In this document: piece by piece, positions 1,305 through 53,182 of the stretch | How positions within the stretch are numbered: the first letter of the stretch is position 1 | How the letters are laid out: each line of letters starts with the position of its first letter | Assembly: GCF_003054705.1 (NCBI RefSeq) | Contig: NZ_QAYX01000024.1 | Location: 310,001 to 374,000 of the forward strand | Direction of reading: 5' to 3' | Source of the DNA: Opitutus sp. ER46 | GTDB lineage: Bacteria > Verrucomicrobiota > Verrucomicrobiia > Opitutales > Opitutaceae | DNA length: 64,000 nucleotides | Notes under the pieces: generated by a model | The model's input: the letters and a program-made list of their open reading frames with translations, nothing else | Told to the model about the DNA's origin: nothing | The model's database searches: none | Translations under genes and position numbers: made by a program

Positions 1305-1474
1305 CGCAGGCCGGTCGGCGTGCACGCCGACCGGCCTGCGAAGTGAAAGTGAGAGTGAAGGTGAAAGTGTCGAGCGACAGCGCCGCGGCGACCGGATGTG
1401 GGGCTGCACCGCGACCGGTGCGCGGAGTGGAGCGACCAGGCCGCTGAGAGTAAGAGAAAGAGCAAGAGAAAGAC
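1305..1474 (+). repeat. Hexamer-tract/palindrome element, copy 1
   Basis: A perfect 36-bp palindrome (1305-1340, two 18-base halves meeting at GTGCAC) is followed by a purine tract of GTGARA hexamers (1341-1370), about 75 bp of spacer, and a second tract of GAGNAA hexamers (1446-1474). With the repeat at 1206-1294 it fills most of the 376-bp gap between the propeller gene and rsmE. The palindrome could form a very stable hairpin and act as a terminator for the upstream operon, though no U-run follows it. Confidence 0.75.
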
Positions 1475-12536: not shown

Positions 12537-12647
12537 GAGTATCCGGACATTATCGCCTGAGTATCCGGACATTATTCCGGAGTATCTGGACATTATTCCG
12601 TAAGTGACGAACTCCGGGGCGGTAATAATTGCAGCCCTCGTGCCCTC
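12537..12647 (+). repeat. Dispersed repeat, copy 2: three 21-22 bp direct repeats plus conserved tail
   Basis: Three tandem units begin GAGTATCYGGACATTAT (12537-12558, 12559-12579, 12580-12600), followed by TAAGT, 16 variable bases, GTAATAATTGCAGC (12622-12635) and CTCGTGCCCTC. It shares about 81 of 89 bases with 1206-1294, in the same orientation relative to the window, and starts 19 bp after the lacI stop. The unit length equals two helical turns. Confidence 0.75.
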
Positions 12648-12683
12648 CCACTCCTCGAGTCGGGGTCGGCCGGGCCTCTCGGA

Positions 12684-12885
<202 letters not shown>

Positions 12886-12922
12886 CGGACGCGGCTCCGA
12901 GCGTCCGGGGCCGGGGCCTGCC

Positions 12923-13774
12923 TCAACTGAACCGCTTGAGGCGCGAGGCGACGTCGTCGCGGAGTCGGTCGAGGTAGCCGAGGGTGTACGCGGCGATGTC
13001 GAGCTTGGGATCGGCGATCAGGGGCGTGAGGTCCATGGCCCAGGTGATGCCCTTGAATTTATCGGTCGCGTGCGAGGTGTGGAACGTCGCGTGAGCGAGG
13101 CGGCGGCCGAGGGCCGCGAGATCGTAGCGTTTGCCGCCGGTCACTTGGGAATCGAAGACCTTCATCAACTCGCCCGCCAATTCCACATGGCGGCCGGCGT
13201 CGAGCGCGACCTTGTCGGCGTCGAGCAGCCAGTCGAGATCGCGCCAGACCTCGGCGCCGAGCACGCGTTTCGGCCGCTGGGCCGCCGGGAGCGAGCGGAT
13301 CGCCTCGAGGCAGCGCAGGAGCACCGCCACGTGCGTGTCGTGCTTGTCCGCCGGGTTGTGCAGGTAAACCACCTCGGGCGTGCAGCCGGCGAAGATCGCG
13401 CGCAGATCGGCGACGACGCCCGGATGCCCGGCGCGCTTCACGTCGGCGCTCGGGTGCGCGAGTTGGAGCTGGATCGCGTAGCGGCCCAGCTGGGCGGCCT
13501 TGCGCTGCTCCTCGCGGCGGACGTCCTGCATCTGCTCGTCGGTCAGGTGCGCGTACGGGCCGGTGCGGGGAGAACCGGCGCCGTTGGTGACCACCACGCC
13601 GCCGAACGCCTTGGCCGGCGCGCCGTCGAGGCAGTCGCAGATCCCGGCGTGGGCCAGGATCTCGATGTCGTCCTGATGCGCGGCCACGCAGAGGTGCGTG
13701 ACGCGGGCGAGGGCGGCGGTCGCGTCGCCACCAGTCGGAACGAAGACGTCAGCGCGAGGATGGGAGAATTTCAT
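12923..13774 (-). CDS. PIG-L/LmbE-family deacetylase
   Basis: 283 residues of the PIG-L (LmbE) zinc-dependent N-acetylglucosaminyl deacetylase family. The metal motif is 'AAHQDDIEI' (His33, Asp35, Asp36; usual AHPDD with Pro replaced by Gln). A second motif, 'HNPADKHDTH' near residue 136, supplies the downstream histidines, so the active site looks intact. No signal peptide, hence cytoplasmic. It follows the NagB-PIG-L fusion gene by 117 bp on the same strand. Members remove acetyl groups from N-acetylglucosamine-type substrates. Here it could provide the deacetylase activity that the neighbouring fusion protein appears to have lost; that link is inference. Confidence 0.85.
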   Translation of the reverse strand: MKFSHPRADVFVPTGGDATAALARVTHLCVAAHQDDIEILAHAGICDCLDGAPAKAFGGVVVTNGAGSPRTGPYAHLTDEQMQDVRREEQRKAAQLGRYAIQLQLAHPSADVKRAGHPGVVADLRAIFAGCTPEVVYLHNPADKHDTHVAVLLRCLEAIRSLPAAQRPKRVLGAEVWRDLDWLLDADKVALDAGRHVELAGELMKVFDSQVTGGKRYDLAALGRRLAHATFHTSHATDKFKGITWAMDLTPLIADPKLDIAAYTLGYLDRLRDDVASRLKRFS

Positions 13775-18154: not shown

Positions 18155-18751
18155 ATGCGTTTGTCCCTCCCATGTGCACTCTTGGGCGCCTTGGCGTTTG
18201 CCCAGGTGGCGGTTGCCGGTGCCCCGGCGCCGGCGGGGACAGCCGCGACCGCGCCAACCCGCCCGAACGCGCCCATGACGCCTGCTGCGCCGGCGTCCGT
18301 GACCACACCGGCCCCGCGGGCGGCGAGTGTGCCGCCGGTGGCGGCCAAGCCCGCCGACGCGACGACGCTTCTGGCCAACGTCCTCACGCGCAACACGCGG
18401 CGGGACATTATCCTCAGCCGGGTGCAGCCGAACGGCAGCCTGCGGCCGTATTTCGATGAGAATGCCGTGCTGATGCTCGAGTCCGTGCCGTACGCCGAAC
18501 TCCGTGTCGGCGACGTCGTCACCTTTTTTCATCCCCAGTTGAACGCGGTGGTGGTGCACCGCCTGGTGGAGAAGCGCGACGGGATGTTCTGGTCGCGCGC
18601 GGATCGCAGTGCGGGGGCGGAGGCGGTGCACGTCACCCCTGAAAATTACCGTCGGCGCCTGGTCGGCGTGGTGTACGTCAATCCGCAACCCGCGGGCAAC
18701 GGCCCCGGCACGACGAGCAGGCCTGCGACCTACGCCGCGCAGCCGGACTGA
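18155..18751 (+). CDS. Secreted protein with signal-peptidase-I-like (S26/S24 fold) domain
   Basis: 198 residues from the ATG at 18155, preceded by GGGGAGA as a ribosome-binding site. A signal peptide (1-22) leads into an Ala/Pro/Thr-rich linker of about 60 residues. The C-terminal 110 residues follow the order of an S26 signal-peptidase domain: 'SVPYAELRVGDVV' where S26 has SMxPtlxxGDvv, 'VVVHRLVEK' where it has vvKRv or vvHRv, 'SRADRSAG' where it has TKGDnn, then 'RRRLVGVVYV'. A Ser and a His fall at the positions used by SEC11-type enzymes, but the match is by eye. It might be an inactive or divergent peptidase-fold protein. No family name is claimed beyond the fold. Confidence 0.55.
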   Translation: MRLSLPCALLGALAFAQVAVAGAPAPAGTAATAPTRPNAPMTPAAPASVTTPAPRAASVPPVAAKPADATTLLANVLTRNTRRDIILSRVQPNGSLRPYFDENAVLMLESVPYAELRVGDVVTFFHPQLNAVVVHRLVEKRDGMFWSRADRSAGAEAVHVTPENYRRRLVGVVYVNPQPAGNGPGTTSRPATYAAQPD

Positions 18752-18887
18752 GGCCTGAGGCCAGAAGCCGGAGGCCGGAAGCCTGAAGCCAGAGGCCGGA
18801 CGTCAGATGTCGGATGTCAGCGGCACCGATGAGGCTTCCGGCGGTTCGGGACGCTGACATCTGACTTCTGACATCTTTCCTTCTGAT
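18752..18887. repeat. Heptamer (RGCCNGA) array with inverted arm, locus A
   Basis: Ten consecutive 7-base units (18752-18821) such as GGCCTGA, AGCCGGA, AGCCAGA and TGTCGGA, with an inverted array (18853-18887: GCTGACA, TCTGACT, TCTGACA). It fills the space between the convergent S26-like gene and the sugar porter and could fold as a long hairpin, possibly ending transcription from both sides. Confidence 0.8.
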
Positions 18888-20908: not shown

Positions 20909-22882
20909 ATGCGCTTCGCTCCTGCTTTGGCTGTGTTGCGTCCCGTGCTGCTGGCCTTGTTTGCGACGGCCAGCCTTGTGACGGCCGAACCCTCGGCCGG
21001 CCAACCCACCTGGCGCATTCCACCGGGCCGGATGACCACGAGCTGGGGTGACCAGGTCACGCCGGCAAATGCGTGGCGCGAGTACCCGCGGCCGCAGTTC
21101 GTGCGGGCGGCGTGGGATAACCTCAACGGCCTTTGGGAGTACGCGGTCACGCCCCGCACGGCGGCAGCGCCGACCGATTACCAGGGTCGAATCCTCGTGC
21201 CGTTCGCAATCGAGTCGGCGCTCTCGGGTGTGGCACGCGCGTTCACGCCGGACGACCGGCTGTGGTATCGCCGGGCTTGGACAGTGCCGGCGGCGTGGCG
21301 CGACCAGCGGGTGCTCCTGCATTTCGGCGCCGTGGACTACGCGTGCACGCTCTGGGTGAACGGCGGCCTCGTGGGCTCGCACGTCGGCGGCAATGACGCG
21401 TTCACATTTGATGTGACGGCGTTCCTGCGCGACGGCGCCAACGAGATCGTGCTCGGCGTCACCGATCCGACCGACACCGGGGAACAGCCGCGGGGCAAAC
21501 AGATGCTGAAGCCGCACGGCATCTGGTACACCCCGGTCTCCGGAATCTGGCAGACGGTTTGGGCCGAGCCGGTGCCCAAGGAAATGCACCTCGCCGAGCT
21601 GCGCTGCACGCCGGACGTGGAAAACTCGCGGCTGCGCGTGACGGCACTGACCGACGCGGCGTATCAGGACAACGCGCTGGCCGTGCGATTCACCGCGAGC
21701 ACGCAGGGGCGCGTCGTGGCGACGACGGTGGTGCGCATCAATCGCGAAGGCTGGCTCGACCTGCCACAGCCGCGCCTCTGGTCGCCCGAAGATCCGTTCC
21801 TCTACGACCTGAAGGCGGAGTTGATTCGGGTGAAGAGCCCGCATCGGCCCGCGGGGAAGGAAGGTGAGGGGAAACCGGTGCTGCCGGCGTTTGGGGCGAG
21901 CGAGCGCGTGGCGTACGCCAAGGCGGAGGTCCTGCCGGGCGAGCCGCTGGACGTGGTCACGTCGTATTTCGGGCTGCGGCAGTTGAGCCTCGGTGCGGGC
22001 CCCAAGCTCGGCCAGCCGCACCTGCGGCTCAACGGCCAGGCGATCTTCCAGCACGGTCCCCTTGACCAGGGCTGGTGGCCGGATGGGTTGCTGACGCCGC
22101 CGAGTGACGCCGCGATGGTGTGGGAGCTCGAGTGGCTGAAGCGCGCCGGGTTCAACATGCTGCGCAAGCACATCAAGGTGGAGCCGGCCCGCTACTACTA
22201 CCATTGCGATCGGCTCGGGCTGCTCGTGTGGCAGGACATGCCGTCGGGGTACAACCGCGGGCTGAGCAACGCCCCGTGGGATGAGGGTGAACCGCCGCGG
22301 CTGTCGGACGGCCGTGCGCAGCACGAACTGGAGCTGCGCCGGATGGTCGGTGCGCTCTACAACCATCCCGCGATCGTGATGTGGGTGATCCACAACGAAG
22401 GCTGGGGCCAATATGAGACCCCGGCGCTCACGGCCTGGGTGAAGGCGATCGATCCCTCACGCTGGTGCAATGCCACGACCGGCTGGCGCGACGAGAACCG
22501 CGGCGACGTGTACGACATTCACACCTACCAGGAGGACGTGCGCGCGCCGGTGAACAAGGAAGACCGTGCCATCGTGGTGGGGGAGTACGGCGGCGTGGGC
22601 TGGCCCGTGGCGGATCACCTTTGGGACGCGACCAAGCGCAACTGGGGTTACCAGACGTACCATGATCAGCCGACCTACGTGGCGCAGGTGAGCAAGCGGA
22701 TGGCGGCGATCGAGAAGCAGTGCCGGGAGATCGGACTCTCCGCGGCGGTGTACACCCAGACGAGCGACGTCGAAGGCGAGGTCAATGGACTGCTCACCTA
22801 TGACCGACGCGTGGAGAAGATGCCGCCGGAGACGCTCGCCGAGATCAACCGACGGCTGGTGAAAAAAGGGCTGAAGGACTGA
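20909..22882 (+). CDS. Secreted GH2-family beta-glycosidase
   Basis: 657 residues with a signal peptide (1-26). GH2 layout: sugar-binding jelly roll ('WYRRAWTVPAAW', 'ACTLWVNGGLVGSHVGG', about 60-210), an Ig-like domain (about 210-330, interrupted by a charged loop), then the TIM barrel. Acid/base Glu497 lies in 'VIHNEGWGQ' and the nucleophile Glu559 in 'IVVGEYGGVG'. The arrangement resembles beta-galactosidases and beta-glucuronidases of this family; the specificity is not decided here. The protein is periplasmic or secreted. Divergent from a sugar porter with shared half-sites between, suggesting a two-gene uptake unit. Confidence 0.88.
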   Translation: MRFAPALAVLRPVLLALFATASLVTAEPSAGQPTWRIPPGRMTTSWGDQVTPANAWREYPRPQFVRAAWDNLNGLWEYAVTPRTAAAPTDYQGRILVPFAIESALSGVARAFTPDDRLWYRRAWTVPAAWRDQRVLLHFGAVDYACTLWVNGGLVGSHVGGNDAFTFDVTAFLRDGANEIVLGVTDPTDTGEQPRGKQMLKPHGIWYTPVSGIWQTVWAEPVPKEMHLAELRCTPDVENSRLRVTALTDAAYQDNALAVRFTASTQGRVVATTVVRINREGWLDLPQPRLWSPEDPFLYDLKAELIRVKSPHRPAGKEGEGKPVLPAFGASERVAYAKAEVLPGEPLDVVTSYFGLRQLSLGAGPKLGQPHLRLNGQAIFQHGPLDQGWWPDGLLTPPSDAAMVWELEWLKRAGFNMLRKHIKVEPARYYYHCDRLGLLVWQDMPSGYNRGLSNAPWDEGEPPRLSDGRAQHELELRRMVGALYNHPAIVMWVIHNEGWGQYETPALTAWVKAIDPSRWCNATTGWRDENRGDVYDIHTYQEDVRAPVNKEDRAIVVGEYGGVGWPVADHLWDATKRNWGYQTYHDQPTYVAQVSKRMAAIEKQCREIGLSAAVYTQTSDVEGEVNGLLTYDRRVEKMPPETLAEINRRLVKKGLKD

Positions 22883-22883
22883 A

Positions 22884-23083
22884 GGTCTGAAAGGCTGAAG
22901 CCTGAGGCCGGAGGTCGGAAGCCGGAGGCCATGGTGCCGGTACGTTGTGCCGACCTGTCCACCGTAGCCGTGCCGAAGGGGAAGCGCAGCGAAGTCGGAG
23001 GGCCGGAGGCCGGAGTTCGATGCTGTCGCGATCGGGTTGGCTTCAGGCCTCCGGCTTCAGGCTTCTGGCTTCCGGCCTCCGAT
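22884..23083. repeat. Heptamer array with inverted arm, locus B
   Basis: Heptamers GGTCTGA, AGCCTGA, GGCCGGA, GGTCGGA and AGCCGGA (22884-22927) and again at about 23000-23018 are matched by an inverted array at about 23037-23083 (TCAGGCC, TCCGGCT, TCAGGCT, TCTGGCT). The loop region contains an unrelated segment (22946-22999). The array separates the GH2 gene from a convergent small membrane protein gene. Confidence 0.78.
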
Positions 23084-27549: not shown

Positions 27550-27571
27550 GTCGCCCGACGATGGCGCCGGA

Positions 27572-27778
27572 AGCCAGAGGTCGGAAGCCAGAAGTCGGCA
27601 GGTCGGAAGCCAGAAGCCGGAAGCCAGAAGCCGGAAGGCAGAGGCAAAGCCGGACGACGGAAGCCGGCTTACCGGTGCCAGACGTCGGACGTCAGATGTC
27701 GGCAGGATGTTTGAACCCCCCATCTGTTCTGGCTGCTTCTGGGTTCAGGCTTCTGGCCTCTGGCTTCCGACTTCGGCC
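27572..27778. repeat. Heptamer array with inverted arm, locus C
   Basis: About ten units (AGCCAGA, GGTCGGA, AGCCGGA, AGTCGGC) run from 27572 to 27642, with more degenerate CGTCGGA/CGTCAGA units at about 27680-27703 and an inverted array at about 27728-27778 (TTCAGGC, TTCTGGC, CTCTGGC, TTCCGAC). It separates transaldolase from the kdpD-type gene, both on the minus strand, and creates a false N-terminal extension on the kinase. Confidence 0.8.
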
Positions 27779-48112: not shown

Positions 48113-48153
48113 GGCCTCTGGCTTCCGACTCCCGGCTTCTGGCTTCCGACGTT
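48113..48153. repeat. Heptamer array, locus D (single arm)
   Basis: Six units in the inverted (pyrimidine) sense, TGGCCTC, TGGCTTC, CGACTCC, CGGCTTC, TGGCTTC, CGACG, lie between the giant protein gene and the SGNH hydrolase gene. Unlike the other loci I see no matching opposite arm, and the flanking genes are in tandem. Confidence 0.7.
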
Positions 48154-48250
48154 TGGAGTCTGACCACTGTTCCCTGACGCGGCCATTCGGACGAGGGTGA
48201 GGGCGTTGACCGATGAAGCCGTCGAGGCCAGCGTGACGTCTTTCTCCCCG

Positions 48251-49438
48251 ATGAAACGCTTCGCTTTTCCCCGACTTCCTTTCTCCCTGCTTTTTGCCGC
48301 CGCGCTCGTGCCGGCGCTGCCCGCGGCCGACGCCCCAAAACCTGCGGCGAGCTCGGCGCCCGATGCCACGGTGCGCGCCGACCCTTCGCTGGCGGCGAGC
48401 AAGGAAGTGGTCGCCGAACTCGATTGGCATGACGTGACCACGTGGGGCGTCGAAGGCCGCGCTTGGGTGGACCAAACCCGCCGGAGCTGGTTCGACCGGC
48501 TGCCGGCGTCGGCCGAGCAGACGGTGACCAAGCACGTCTGGAACCTCAGCCGCGACTCGGCCGGCATGATGGTCCGGTTCAAGACCGACGCGACGAGCAT
48601 CCACGTCCATTACCTTTTGACCAAGGACCGGCTGGCGATGCCGCACATGCCGGCGACGGGGGTGAGTGGCGTGGATCTGTACGCGCGGGACGAGCAGGGA
48701 CACTGGCGTTGGGTGCAGGTGGCGAGGCCCGGCAAACAGGAGGTGAAGGCCGAGTTGGTCAAGGATCTGGCGCCCGGCTACCGCGAGTACGCGGCGTACC
48801 TGCCGTTGTACAACGGCGTGCAATCGCTGGCCATTGGCGTGCCCAAAGGGGCCAAGTTCGAGGGCCTCGCTCCCCGCACGGACAAGCCGATCGTGTTTTA
48901 CGGCACCTCGATCACGCACGGGGCCTGCGCCTCGCGTCCGGGCATGGTGCACACGGCGATCCTGGGCCGGCGGTTTGACCGGTCGGTGCTGAACCTTGGG
49001 TTTTCTGGCAACGGCAAGATGGATGCCGCCGTGGGCGCGTTCCTCACGCAGGTGGATGCCGCGGTGTACGTCATCGATTGCCTGCCCAACATGAATCCCG
49101 CGCTGGTGGCGGAGCGGACGGTGCCGTTGGTGCAGCAGCTACGCGCGGCCCATCCCGACACGCCGATCATCCTGGTCGAGGACCGGCGGCATACGAACTC
49201 GTGGATCCTGCCGGCGACGGACAAGTTCCACACCGAGAATCACGCCGCGCTGAAGGCCCAGTACGAACGCCTGCAGCAGGACGGCGTGAAGCACCTGTAT
49301 TACATCCCCGGTGACGCGCTCTACGGCACCGATGCGGAAGGCTCGACCGACGGTTCGCACGCCAGCGACCTCGGTTTCTGGCGCCAGGCCGACGTCATGG
49401 AGCCGGTGATACGTGCAGCGCTTTCGGCCGCGCGCTGA
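48251..49438 (+). CDS. Secreted SGNH-fold hydrolase (two-domain esterase)
   Basis: 395 residues from the ATG at 48251, with a signal peptide (1-26). The N-terminal beta-sandwich (about 55-205, 'WNLSRDSAGMMVRFKTDATSI') belongs to the type fused in front of SGNH esterases. The C-terminal hydrolase has block I 'VFYGTSITHGACAS' (Ser220), block II/III 'NLGFSGNGKMD' (oxyanion Gly and Asn) and block V 'DGSHASDLGF' with the Asp-His pair. Enzymes of this architecture remove acyl groups from carbohydrates. It stands alone between repeat loci D and E; no transporter is directly linked. Confidence 0.87.
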   Translation: MKRFAFPRLPFSLLFAAALVPALPAADAPKPAASSAPDATVRADPSLAASKEVVAELDWHDVTTWGVEGRAWVDQTRRSWFDRLPASAEQTVTKHVWNLSRDSAGMMVRFKTDATSIHVHYLLTKDRLAMPHMPATGVSGVDLYARDEQGHWRWVQVARPGKQEVKAELVKDLAPGYREYAAYLPLYNGVQSLAIGVPKGAKFEGLAPRTDKPIVFYGTSITHGACASRPGMVHTAILGRRFDRSVLNLGFSGNGKMDAAVGAFLTQVDAAVYVIDCLPNMNPALVAERTVPLVQQLRAAHPDTPIILVEDRRHTNSWILPATDKFHTENHAALKAQYERLQQDGVKHLYYIPGDALYGTDAEGSTDGSHASDLGFWRQADVMEPVIRAALSAAR

Positions 49439-49443
49439 CCGAA

Positions 49444-49622
49444 ATGGCTGAAGGACTGAAAGGCTGAAGCCGGAAGCCGGAGGAGGGAAGCCAGAAGCCG
49501 GAAGCCGGAGGCCAGAGGCCGGAAAGCGGTGTCGGATCGATCAGATCAGCGGATCGGATCTGGCCTCAGGCTTCCGGCTTCAGTCGGATCGCTTCAGGCC
49601 TCCGGCTTTCGCTCCTTCAGCC
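49444..49622. repeat. Heptamer array with inverted arm, locus E
   Basis: Eight regular units (49468-49523: AGCCGGA, AGCCGGA, GGAGGGA, AGCCAGA, AGCCGGA, AGCCGGA, GGCCAGA, GGCCGGA) preceded by CTGAAGG/CTGAAAGG variants, with an inverted array at about 49560-49622 (TGGCCTC, AGGCTTC, CGGCTTC). The array lies between the convergent SGNH hydrolase and POT transporter genes. Confidence 0.8.
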
Positions 49623-51330: not shown

Positions 51331-51614
51331 CTCTCTCTCTTCCTCTTACTCGTCCTCTTTCTCCCGCCCGTCCCTGCCCCGTCACCTCGCCCGTCGTTCT
51401 CGTTCTCGTTCTCGTTCTCGTTCTCGTTCTCGTTCTCGTTCTCGTTCTCCGCGGCGCGGCTACTGCAGCTCCGTCCCCGGCGCAACTTCACCCATCGCGC
51501 GACGCGGGCCGCCGGCGCCGGCGGCCACCGGCAACTTGATCTCGCACCGCCCAGATGACGGCCGCGGCACGCGGCCGTCATGAGAGAACGAGAAAGAGTA
51601 CGAGAAAGAGAAAG
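51331..51614 (-). repeat. Hexamer-tract/palindrome element, copy 3
   Basis: A pyrimidine tract (51331-51364), a short spacer, nine perfect GTTCTC units (51396-51449), about 105 bp, a GC palindrome with 12-bp arms (51555-51566 / 51570-51581, ATGACGGCCGCG) and a purine tract of GAGNAM hexamers (51581-51614). This is the same order as copy 2. A smaller G-run/C-run hairpin lies at 51310-51327. Together these fill most of the 518-bp gap between the POT transporter and glpD. Confidence 0.78.
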
Positions 51615-51640
51615 ATGTGACCGCCCTGAAGGGGCGGAGA

Positions 51641-51671
51641 GAAACAAACGGGGGCGCCTTGCGGCGCCCCC
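51641..51671 (-). terminator. Rho-independent-type terminator of the glp cassette
   Basis: On the minus strand GGGGGCGCC-GCAA-GGCGCCCCC (51671 down to 51650) is followed by GTTTGTTTC. It lies 33 bp after the glpD stop and so ends the five-gene cassette transcribed from 57885. Confidence 0.75.
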
Positions 51672-51703: not shown

Positions 51704-53182
51704 TCAGCGCTTGGTGGGCGGCGGGACGGGAACGCCGACCGCAGCGCGGTAGGCGGCGATCTCCTGGGCGCGCCGTTCGGGCGTCCAGCCAGCGATCTCG
51801 GCCATCCAGGTGGCCACGCGTTCGGCGAGGTCGCCGGACTCGTAGTAGTGCCAGCTGCTGCGGCGCACGAGGACGTCGTCAAGGTGCACGGCCCACTCGT
51901 TCTTCACGTAGTGTTCCACGGCCTCGCGTGTGACGGGCGGCGGGACAATGCCGCTGAAGTTGTTGGGCACGTCCGTCGGCAGGAGCGGTTCCTGCGCGGT
52001 GCGGGAGCGGCCGGCGCTGTGGCCGAGGAAGCGGGCGATCTTGTCGACGGCCTGTTCGGCCATGAGCCGGTAGGTCGTGAGCTTGCCGCCGGCGATGTCC
52101 CACCAGCCCGGCTGCGGGTTCTTGATCTGGTGGGCGCGGGAGACGTCGGAGGGCGTGCCGTCCGGATTGGCGATGAGGGGACGGATACCGGCCCAGGAGC
52201 TGATGATGTCCTTTTCCTTGATCGCGTTGGACGGGAAGTAGTCGTTGACCGCGCGCAGGACGTACGTGACGTCCTCGTTGGCCACGCGAACGTCCTCGGG
52301 GGCGCCCTGGTAGTCGGTGTCGGTGGTGCCGATGATGACGCGCTTGCCCCAGGGAAGGACGAAGATGATGCGCTTGCCCTCGGTGATGACGACGGCGGCC
52401 GGCACGGGGAGGCGGCTGCGGTCGATGACGACGTGAATGCCCTTGCTGAGCCGGAGCTTCACGGAGCTGTGGCGGATCTGTTCGGCCCAGGGTCCGGTGG
52501 CATTGACGATGGTCTTGGCCTGGACGACGTACTTCTGGCCGGTGATCTTGTCCTCGAGCTGGATCTTCCAGAGGTCACCCTCGCGGGTGGAGTCGACGAA
52601 GCGGAGGTAGTTGGCGACCGTGGCGCCGTAGCGGGCCGCGGACGTCAGGGTGTCGTACACGAGCCGGGCGTCGCTGGTGAGGGCGTCGAAGTAGCGGACG
52701 CAGCCGCCGAGCTTCTCGCTGCGGAGGGTGGGCAGCATCTCGAGGGTCTCGCGGGCGTTGAAGCCGCGGGACGGCTGGAAATTGCGGCCGCCGCAAAGCA
52801 GGTCGTAAATCTTGACGCCGATGCGGAGCTGCCAGACCGGCCAGCCCTTGCCCTTGTAGGACGGGAAGAGGAAGCCCAGCGGATCGCCGAGGTGCGGCGC
52901 AATGTCGCGGATCGTCTTCTTTTCGACGCTGGCCTCATGCACGAGTCCGACCCGCCCCTGTTCGAGGTAGCGGATGCCGCCATGGAGGAGCCGGCTGGAG
53001 CGGCTGCTGGTGCCGAAGGCGAAGTCGTGCTGCTCGACGAGCGCCGTGCGCAGGCCGCGCATGGCTGCGTCGCGGGCGACGCCGCTGCCGACAACGCCGC
53101 CGCCGATGACGAAGACGTCGAGGGGGGCGGCGGTGAGCTTTGCCTGGATTTCCGGTCGGGAGAGAACCGTGTTTGCCGTCAT
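51704..53182 (-). CDS. glpD: FAD-dependent sn-glycerol-3-phosphate dehydrogenase
   Basis: 492 residues. N-terminal FAD Rossmann motif 'DVFVIGGGVVGSGVARDAAMRG' (22-43), then 'GTSSRSSRLLHGGIRYLEQG', the classic GlpD signature, 'INATGPWAEQIR'-like 'VNATGPWAEQI', 'GTTDTDYQG' and 'GGKLTTYRLMAEQAVD' near the C-terminus, followed by the helical C-terminal domain. It oxidises sn-glycerol-3-phosphate to DHAP at the membrane and passes electrons to quinone. It overlaps the HAD phosphatase gene by 4 bp and is the last gene of the cassette, with a terminator 33 bp beyond. Confidence 0.94.
   Translation of the reverse strand: MTANTVLSRPEIQAKLTAAPLDVFVIGGGVVGSGVARDAAMRGLRTALVEQHDFAFGTSSRSSRLLHGGIRYLEQGRVGLVHEASVEKKTIRDIAPHLGDPLGFLFPSYKGKGWPVWQLRIGVKIYDLLCGGRNFQPSRGFNARETLEMLPTLRSEKLGGCVRYFDALTSDARLVYDTLTSAARYGATVANYLRFVDSTREGDLWKIQLEDKITGQKYVVQAKTIVNATGPWAEQIRHSSVKLRLSKGIHVVIDRSRLPVPAAVVITEGKRIIFVLPWGKRVIIGTTDTDYQGAPEDVRVANEDVTYVLRAVNDYFPSNAIKEKDIISSWAGIRPLIANPDGTPSDVSRAHQIKNPQPGWWDIAGGKLTTYRLMAEQAVDKIARFLGHSAGRSRTAQEPLLPTDVPNNFSGIVPPPVTREAVEHYVKNEWAVHLDDVLVRRSSWHYYESGDLAERVATWMAEIAGWTPERRAQEIAAYRAAVGVPVPPPTKR

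Follow-up and report, generated by a model that had tools for sequence, protein, structure and literature searches.

Most of what is known about interspersed extragenic repeats concerns REP palindromes, which are associated with RAYT transposases. The STRR heptamer repeats of cyanobacteria are degenerate short tandem repeats in intergenic regions. REPINs are REP doublets that form hairpins and are defined by doublets being better conserved than singlets (PMC3116915). REPs favour codirectional and convergent gaps close to gene 3′ ends (PMC3733652), and GTAG REPs are abundant in Opitutus terrae (Verrucomicrobia) (PMC3116915; PMC3733652). DNA uptake signals in Neisseria and Pasteurellaceae form inverted pairs which act as terminators at gene ends (PMC1852404). 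The PIT/BoxC motif, an intrastrand triplex involving a third purine strand, is compact, with ~36 nt (PMC4666352).

The window, i.e. the whole analysed stretch of 64,000 nucleotides, comprises bases 310001-374000 of contig C24 of Opitutus sp. ER46 (genome 5.71 Mb, 25 contigs, 67.7% GC). Three loci in this window belong to a family of extragenic inverted doublets that has a few hundred copies, and a literature search found no published description of these hexamer repeats. Like REPINs and REP dimers, the family combines extragenic inverted doublets with less conserved singlets and strong species specificity, spacers of tens of bp that vary in sequence and length, and a preference for convergent and codirectional gaps near gene 3′ ends. 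However, the arms are ~35 bp long and hexamer-periodic purine, without a palindromic core (the arm consensus TGAGAGTAAGAGAAAGAGGAAGAGTAAGAGAAAGA has neither an internal palindrome nor a GTAG/CGTC tag); no RAYT gene is linked, as this genome has 13 Y1_Tnp genes and none of them has a tract within ~1.5 kb; and the spacers are mostly unique. As in BIMEs, several repeat types (A, B, GAGAAC, octamer, other palindromes) form a mosaic within a single intergenic region, but BIMEs are built on REP palindromes, whereas the units here are purine/pyrimidine arms. The resemblance to REPINs and BIMEs is real with regard to architecture, yet it does not extend to the palindromic tagged unit or the linked transposase; the hexamer hairpins seem to represent a new type of repeat related to REP and REPIN elements.

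Uptake-signal pairs share with the hexamer doublets a repeated, oriented motif arranged in inverted pairs at gene 3′ ends, but differ in length, in copy number and in that hexamer arms are absent from genes. PIT/BoxC elements are likewise intergenic repeats with a pyrimidine arm followed by a purine arm on one strand; here, however, loops measure 28-176 nt, arms are T-interrupted and a third tract is rare. In contrast to STRR repeats, the hexamer arms are strictly inverted pairs with a 3′-end orientation. A few hundred doublets without REP core, linked transposase or common spacers raise the question of how short repeats multiply pairwise around unique DNA.

The main genome sample comprised 852 kb, with genes called by a simple, purpose-written home-made caller. 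An additional 400 kb of contig C23 (C23:1-400000) was taken later and intended as independent replication, but held too few tracts (7), and canonical B loci from other contigs were used instead. Tract density is uneven, with 7 tracts in C23:1-400000 vs 82 in the 852 kb; within this nearly tract-free sample there is also a 50 kb segment in which one strand carries 95% of the genes. Protein searches with a protein query from the window gave matches mostly in Verrucomicrobiota, one of them in an Opitutia MAG (68% identity). An Rfam search of the window at gathering score displayed one tRNA and no other family match.

Architecture of the repeat family and its loci in the window

The preliminary description of this DNA had placed tracts and palindromes at three loci, and both sequence and coordinates are correct. 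Palindrome arms of 16 and 12 bp were confirmed for copies 2 and 3, while the arm of copy 1, given as 18 bp, measures 19 bp. The features are as follows.

1304-1341, unstranded: copy 1 perfect GC palindrome, 19-bp arms, loop 0, abutting tract A
1343-1369, plus strand: copy 1 tract A arm, (GTGARR)4
1448-1473, plus strand: copy 1 tract B arm GAGTAAGAGAAAGAGCAAGAGAAAGA, pyrimidine-sense relative to the minus-strand gene 1500-2720
12685-12706, minus strand: copy 2 left tract B arm (TTTCTC)n, inverted
12762-12821, minus strand: copy 2 tract A arm, inverted, TTTCAC/TCTCAC hexamers
12821-12857, unstranded: copy 2 perfect GC palindrome, 16-bp arms, loop 5, abutting the right B arm
12858-12885, plus strand: copy 2 right tract B arm GAGAAAGAGGAAGAGTAAGAGAAAGA, pyrimidine-sense relative to the minus-strand PIG-L gene
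51340-51363, minus strand: copy 3 left tract B arm, inverted
51394-51449, minus strand: copy 3 pure (GAGAAC)9 array, a third repeat type of variable length and not tract A
51507-51526, unstranded: copy 3 extra perfect palindrome GGCCGCCGGC/GCCGGCGGCC, within the spacer
51555-51581, unstranded: copy 3 GC palindrome, 12-bp arms, loop 3, abutting the right arm
51584-51615, plus strand: copy 3 right tract B arm GAGAACGAGAAAGAGTACGAGAAAGAGAAAGA, ~90 nt past the stop of the minus-strand gene 51704-53182
51650-51671, minus strand: GC hairpin GGGGGCGCC-loop-GGCGCCCCC, then GTTTGTTTCT on the minus strand, preceding the tract B arm

The tract B arm of copy 1 lies 28 nt past the stop codon of a lactonase-like gene on the minus strand (1500-2720), and RNA from the minus strand of 1290-1500 folds with z -6.8. 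In copy 2 (transcript fold z -5.6), the right B arm is found ~40 nt past the stop codon of the PIG-L gene (minus strand, 12923-13774), and both B arms have a hairpin on their outer side: 12670-12682 at the left arm, directly followed by AATCTTTCTC, and 12886-12907 at the right arm, followed by AATCTTTCTC on the minus strand. The gene preceding copy 3 (z -4.6) encodes a FAD oxidoreductase on the minus strand, and the hairpin at 51650-51671 is probably its ordinary terminator. The best congener match of this gene, in G008, displays 67% amino-acid identity, and in this congener no tract occurs in the DNA following the ortholog.

A separate dispersed module directly adjoins copies 1 and 2 (1206-1300 and 12537-12652). 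In this module, GAGTATCYGGACATTATTCCG is repeated 2-3 times ahead of a conserved stretch, GTAAGT...GTAATAATTGCAGC.CTCGTGCCCTC, and the tail of the module has 31 copies in the genome. At a guess, this module is perhaps the end of an insertion sequence.

Tract B (GAGNAA hexamers in the preliminary description) is not an open-ended microsatellite but a discrete arm of ~35 bp with the consensus TGA-GAGTAAGAGAAAGAGGAAGAGTAAGAGAAA-GA. Its modal length is 5 hexamers, the fourth letters of the hexamers are position-specific, and its borders are TGA or CGA before and GA after the hexamers. The 15-mer GAGNAAGAGNAAGAG occurs 534 times in the genome vs 0-11 times in each of 18 congeners; its 21-base version occurs 291 times here and at most 36 times in any of 285 other genomes of the class. 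An exact tract B 22-mer has 52 genome copies (reversed control 0). With up to 3 mismatches, a 32-nt B arm is found in 123 copies (control 0), with 3 in congener G316 and none in 25 other congeners. Tract A, whose arms mostly have 3-4 hexamers, is less exclusive, with dozens of matches in G316 and G017 too. The GAGAAC arrays, which range from 3 to 11 units, are a third repeat type; the array of copy 3, situated ~105 bp away from the palindrome, had been taken for tract A and is in fact a different repeat. Viral contigs gave one exact match, inside a Glu/Lys-rich coding stretch, which was dismissed as coincidence.

The doublet architecture of the family is well supported. Among adjacent B arms in the sampled DNA, the arrangement -+ was observed 21 times, +- never, and direct orientation 5 times; the layout is a pyrimidine arm, a spacer of 28-176 bp and a purine arm, and 17 of 21 spacers are unique within the sample. 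A doublets display the opposite layout of purine arm, spacer and pyrimidine arm (4/4). As in the definition of REPINs, these inverted, extragenic doublets are more conserved than singlets, since doublet B arms carry 3.36 mismatches to the consensus vs 4.96 in singlets (p=0.005). A transcript through a doublet can form a stem of ~30-36 bp, and the predicted folds of B doublet transcripts are much stronger than those of shuffled sequences (mean z -6.2, n=18). Within doublets, no covariation of arms beyond the family consensus was detected (p=0.12, 18 pairs; p=0.24, 36 pairs), which lends no support to selection for pairing itself. No asymmetry between proximal and distal arms was seen (p=0.64), and the outer 32-nt segments did not differ in hairpin strength from ordinary 3′ ends.

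GAGAAC arrays of 6-11 units (51394-51449; C24:658827-658892; L193; C23) replace the distal purine arm in several codirectional doublets. The proximal arm is never replaced by such long arrays (16 codirectional doublets examined).

Placement at gene 3′ ends and possible role in transcripts

That the element recurs between genes, as had been proposed, is borne out by the sample: the midpoints of 82/82 tracts lie outside predicted genes in the 852 kb, of which 11.7% is intergenic. Convergent intergenic regions carry the element most often (25%), followed by codirectional (10%) and divergent ones (5%). B arms less than 60 nt from a 3′ end are pyrimidine-sense by 23:2 and start 10-48 nt past the stop codon, and A arms at this distance are all purine-sense (9:0). 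At some loci, a canonical terminator comes before the arm (51650-51671; C24:304814). C23:1-400000 is nearly without copies; the element is therefore not generally required at 3′ ends.

An intrinsic (Rho-independent) terminator is a GC hairpin directly followed by a U-run. In a Rho-dependent terminator, a pause hairpin follows 70-80 nt that are richer in C than in G, with the C residues spaced out. The stem of a doublet has no U-run after it and would thus probably not be an intrinsic terminator by itself; both outer hairpins of copy 2 are followed by AATCTTTCTC, but of 86 B arms only 13 have a hairpin abutting their outer flank (5.5 in shuffled sequence). Rho is encoded in the genome. In rut-like C>G stretches as used by RhoTermPredict (PMC6407284), a C/G ratio above 2 was found at 72% of 3′ ends with a pyrimidine arm vs 23% of others, a difference which the arm itself partly builds in. 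Not built in is the composition of codirectional doublet spacers, which are C-rich and G-poor on the sense strand in 19/26 cases vs a background of 91/182, in a sample mixing unbiased blocks with loci chosen by canonical arm. This strand asymmetry counts in favour of a role in RNA, because a purely DNA-level palindrome would not need it. A-bearing 3′ ends display no C/G enrichment, and the polarity of tract A is wrong for Rho, because it is purine-sense past the stop codon.

Judged from sequence features, we see about an even chance that these are REPIN/BIME-like interspersed repeats acting as transcript 3′-end hairpins, possibly with Rho loading. The element would then act at the RNA level, at the 3′ ends of transcripts, as REP/BIME hairpins do. 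The pyrimidine arm of tract B, G-free and C-containing and emerging 10-48 nt past the stop codon, could be a loading stretch for Rho, and the purine arm would then close a long stem, fixing or protecting the 3′ end. The B doublet is symmetric and would therefore serve both genes of a convergent pair. The family may have spread recently in this species, presumably with arms being copied or homogenised and spacers not. The terminator-like role proposed in the preliminary description is compatible with the observations, and nothing observed points to the insulator or nucleoid-protein roles. The doublets would represent a natural set of strictly transcription-oriented 3′-end hairpins, in a phylum with little transcript biology, and could serve to test Rho-dependent termination and mRNA end protection.

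GC palindromes and alternative explanations

The palindromes of the three loci are the only perfect ones in the window (arms ≥11, loop ≤8), and they differ in sequence among the loci, as had been noted before. Counting perfect palindromes with arms ≥10, the genome sample has 17 within 60 bp of tracts and 58 in other intergenic DNA, a 3.3-fold higher density near tracts (p=9e-5); compared with other 3′-end-proximal DNA, the density beside tracts is raised 2.5-fold (p=0.006). B-bearing intergenic regions contain a palindrome in 15 cases vs 8.0 expected for matched lengths (p=0.003), and palindromes most often abut the 5′ edge of a purine tract. A and B occur in one intergenic region 8 times vs a length-matched expectation of 2.5 (3.2-fold, p=0.001). 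The GC palindromes are locus-specific stem-loops which tend to adjoin an arm and lie outside the repeated sequence; their differing sequences would fit stem-loops specific to each 3′ end.

A fixed composite of palindrome, tract A, spacer and tract B, working as an insulator, as triplex DNA or as the binding site of a nucleoid protein, could account for the fact that A-B, B-palindrome and A-palindrome co-occurrence all exceed length-matched expectation, and for palindromes adjoining the 5′ edge of purine tracts. The refuting condition named in the preliminary description, independent occurrence of tracts and palindromes genome-wide, has an intermediate outcome: the association of tracts with palindromes goes beyond chance, yet most tracts have no palindrome, and a palindrome is not a defining part of the element. 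The co-occurrence of A and B likewise stands, but not their fixed order, since several orders and orientations exist genome-wide. Triplex-forming mirror DNA (H-DNA) is unlikely, because the purine strands of both arm families are interrupted by a T every 6-18 bases and the arms are paired as inverted rather than mirror repeats; a triplex would call for an uninterrupted mirror-symmetric purine tract or a three-tract fold, and groups of three tracts are rare. Taken as a whole, the fixed composite appears highly improbable. Very improbable is also simple-sequence slippage, i.e. purine hexamer microsatellites expanding anywhere in non-coding DNA. The hexamer periodicity and the 3 to 11 units of the GAGAAC arrays would agree with it, but the modal length, position-specific letters and fixed borders of the B arms, the 52 copies of the exact 22-mer vs none of its reversed control and the strict pair orientation would not; slippage fits the GAGAAC arrays only and not the B arms. 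Least credible of all seems a motif resembling the uptake signals of Neisseria and Pasteurellaceae: hundreds of copies of one consensus in inverted pairs at 3′ ends recall such signals, but the arm has ~35 bp vs 9-11 bp, uptake signals typically number at least 1,000 (PMC1852404), well over the copy number here, and genes contain none of the sampled copies.

The main rival to a 3′-end hairpin role is selfish spread, which we regard as possible but doubtful. The inverted doublet would then be the replicative unit of a miniature mobile element of the REPIN or TIR type, moved by a tyrosine (Y1) transposase, and the 3′ location would reflect tolerance of insertions. Such an origin is consistent with the doublet architecture and its better conservation relative to singlets, with the burst of copies specific to the species, with the presence of 13 Y1_Tnp genes, and with the convergent and codirectional bias that is also known for REPs (PMC3733652). 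Against it, neither A nor B tracts lie within ~1.5 kb of these Y1_Tnp genes, the arms lack the palindrome and tag of a REP, and spacers are unique in 17/21 doublets though several arms are identical, so that the doublet was not copied whole. Inspection of doublet ends by eye displayed no consistent target duplication. Mobilisation by a RAYT is unsupported in view of the distance to the transposase genes. The doublets also do not match a MITE, whose copies have common internal sequence, terminal inverted repeats and target duplication, since most spacers are unique in the sample and no consistent duplication was seen. With regard to the Y1_Tnp genes themselves (RAYT/IS200-like; L161-L168 and L280-L282), several encode ~327 aa and are present in multiple copies, and one (L165) adjoins a repeat array resembling a CRISPR.

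Related designs and further repeat types

Hairpins made of other hexamers are present in G316, which belongs to the same genus, and in G284, G098 and G160, which represent three other families of the class. In these relatives the pyrimidine arm comes first, and several hairpins have at least 20 paired bases. The design recurs across these relatives with different hexamer letters. We tentatively suggest, as a possibility on the unlikely side, a new class of hexamer-coded 3′-end hairpins in Verrucomicrobiota, in which each lineage would have arms of its own (GAGNAA, GAGCAA, GAGTAA, GAGGAC), with the pyrimidine arm first and locus-specific loops; arms would be copied and loops not, and the hairpins might be a general transcript-end device.

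Further repeats were observed in this genome. A palindromic repeat GTTTTCGC..GCGAAAAC and octamers (CCCTCAAT)n are packed within or next to B doublets (C24:65874-66000, 104973-105136 and 131263; L193). Heptamer arrays (GAAGCCR) are found at gene ends in the window (18748-18880, 22866-23081, 27566-27778, 48117-48162 and 49437-49620); they are mostly inverted pairs with the purine-rich array first, and as such a system parallel to tract A.
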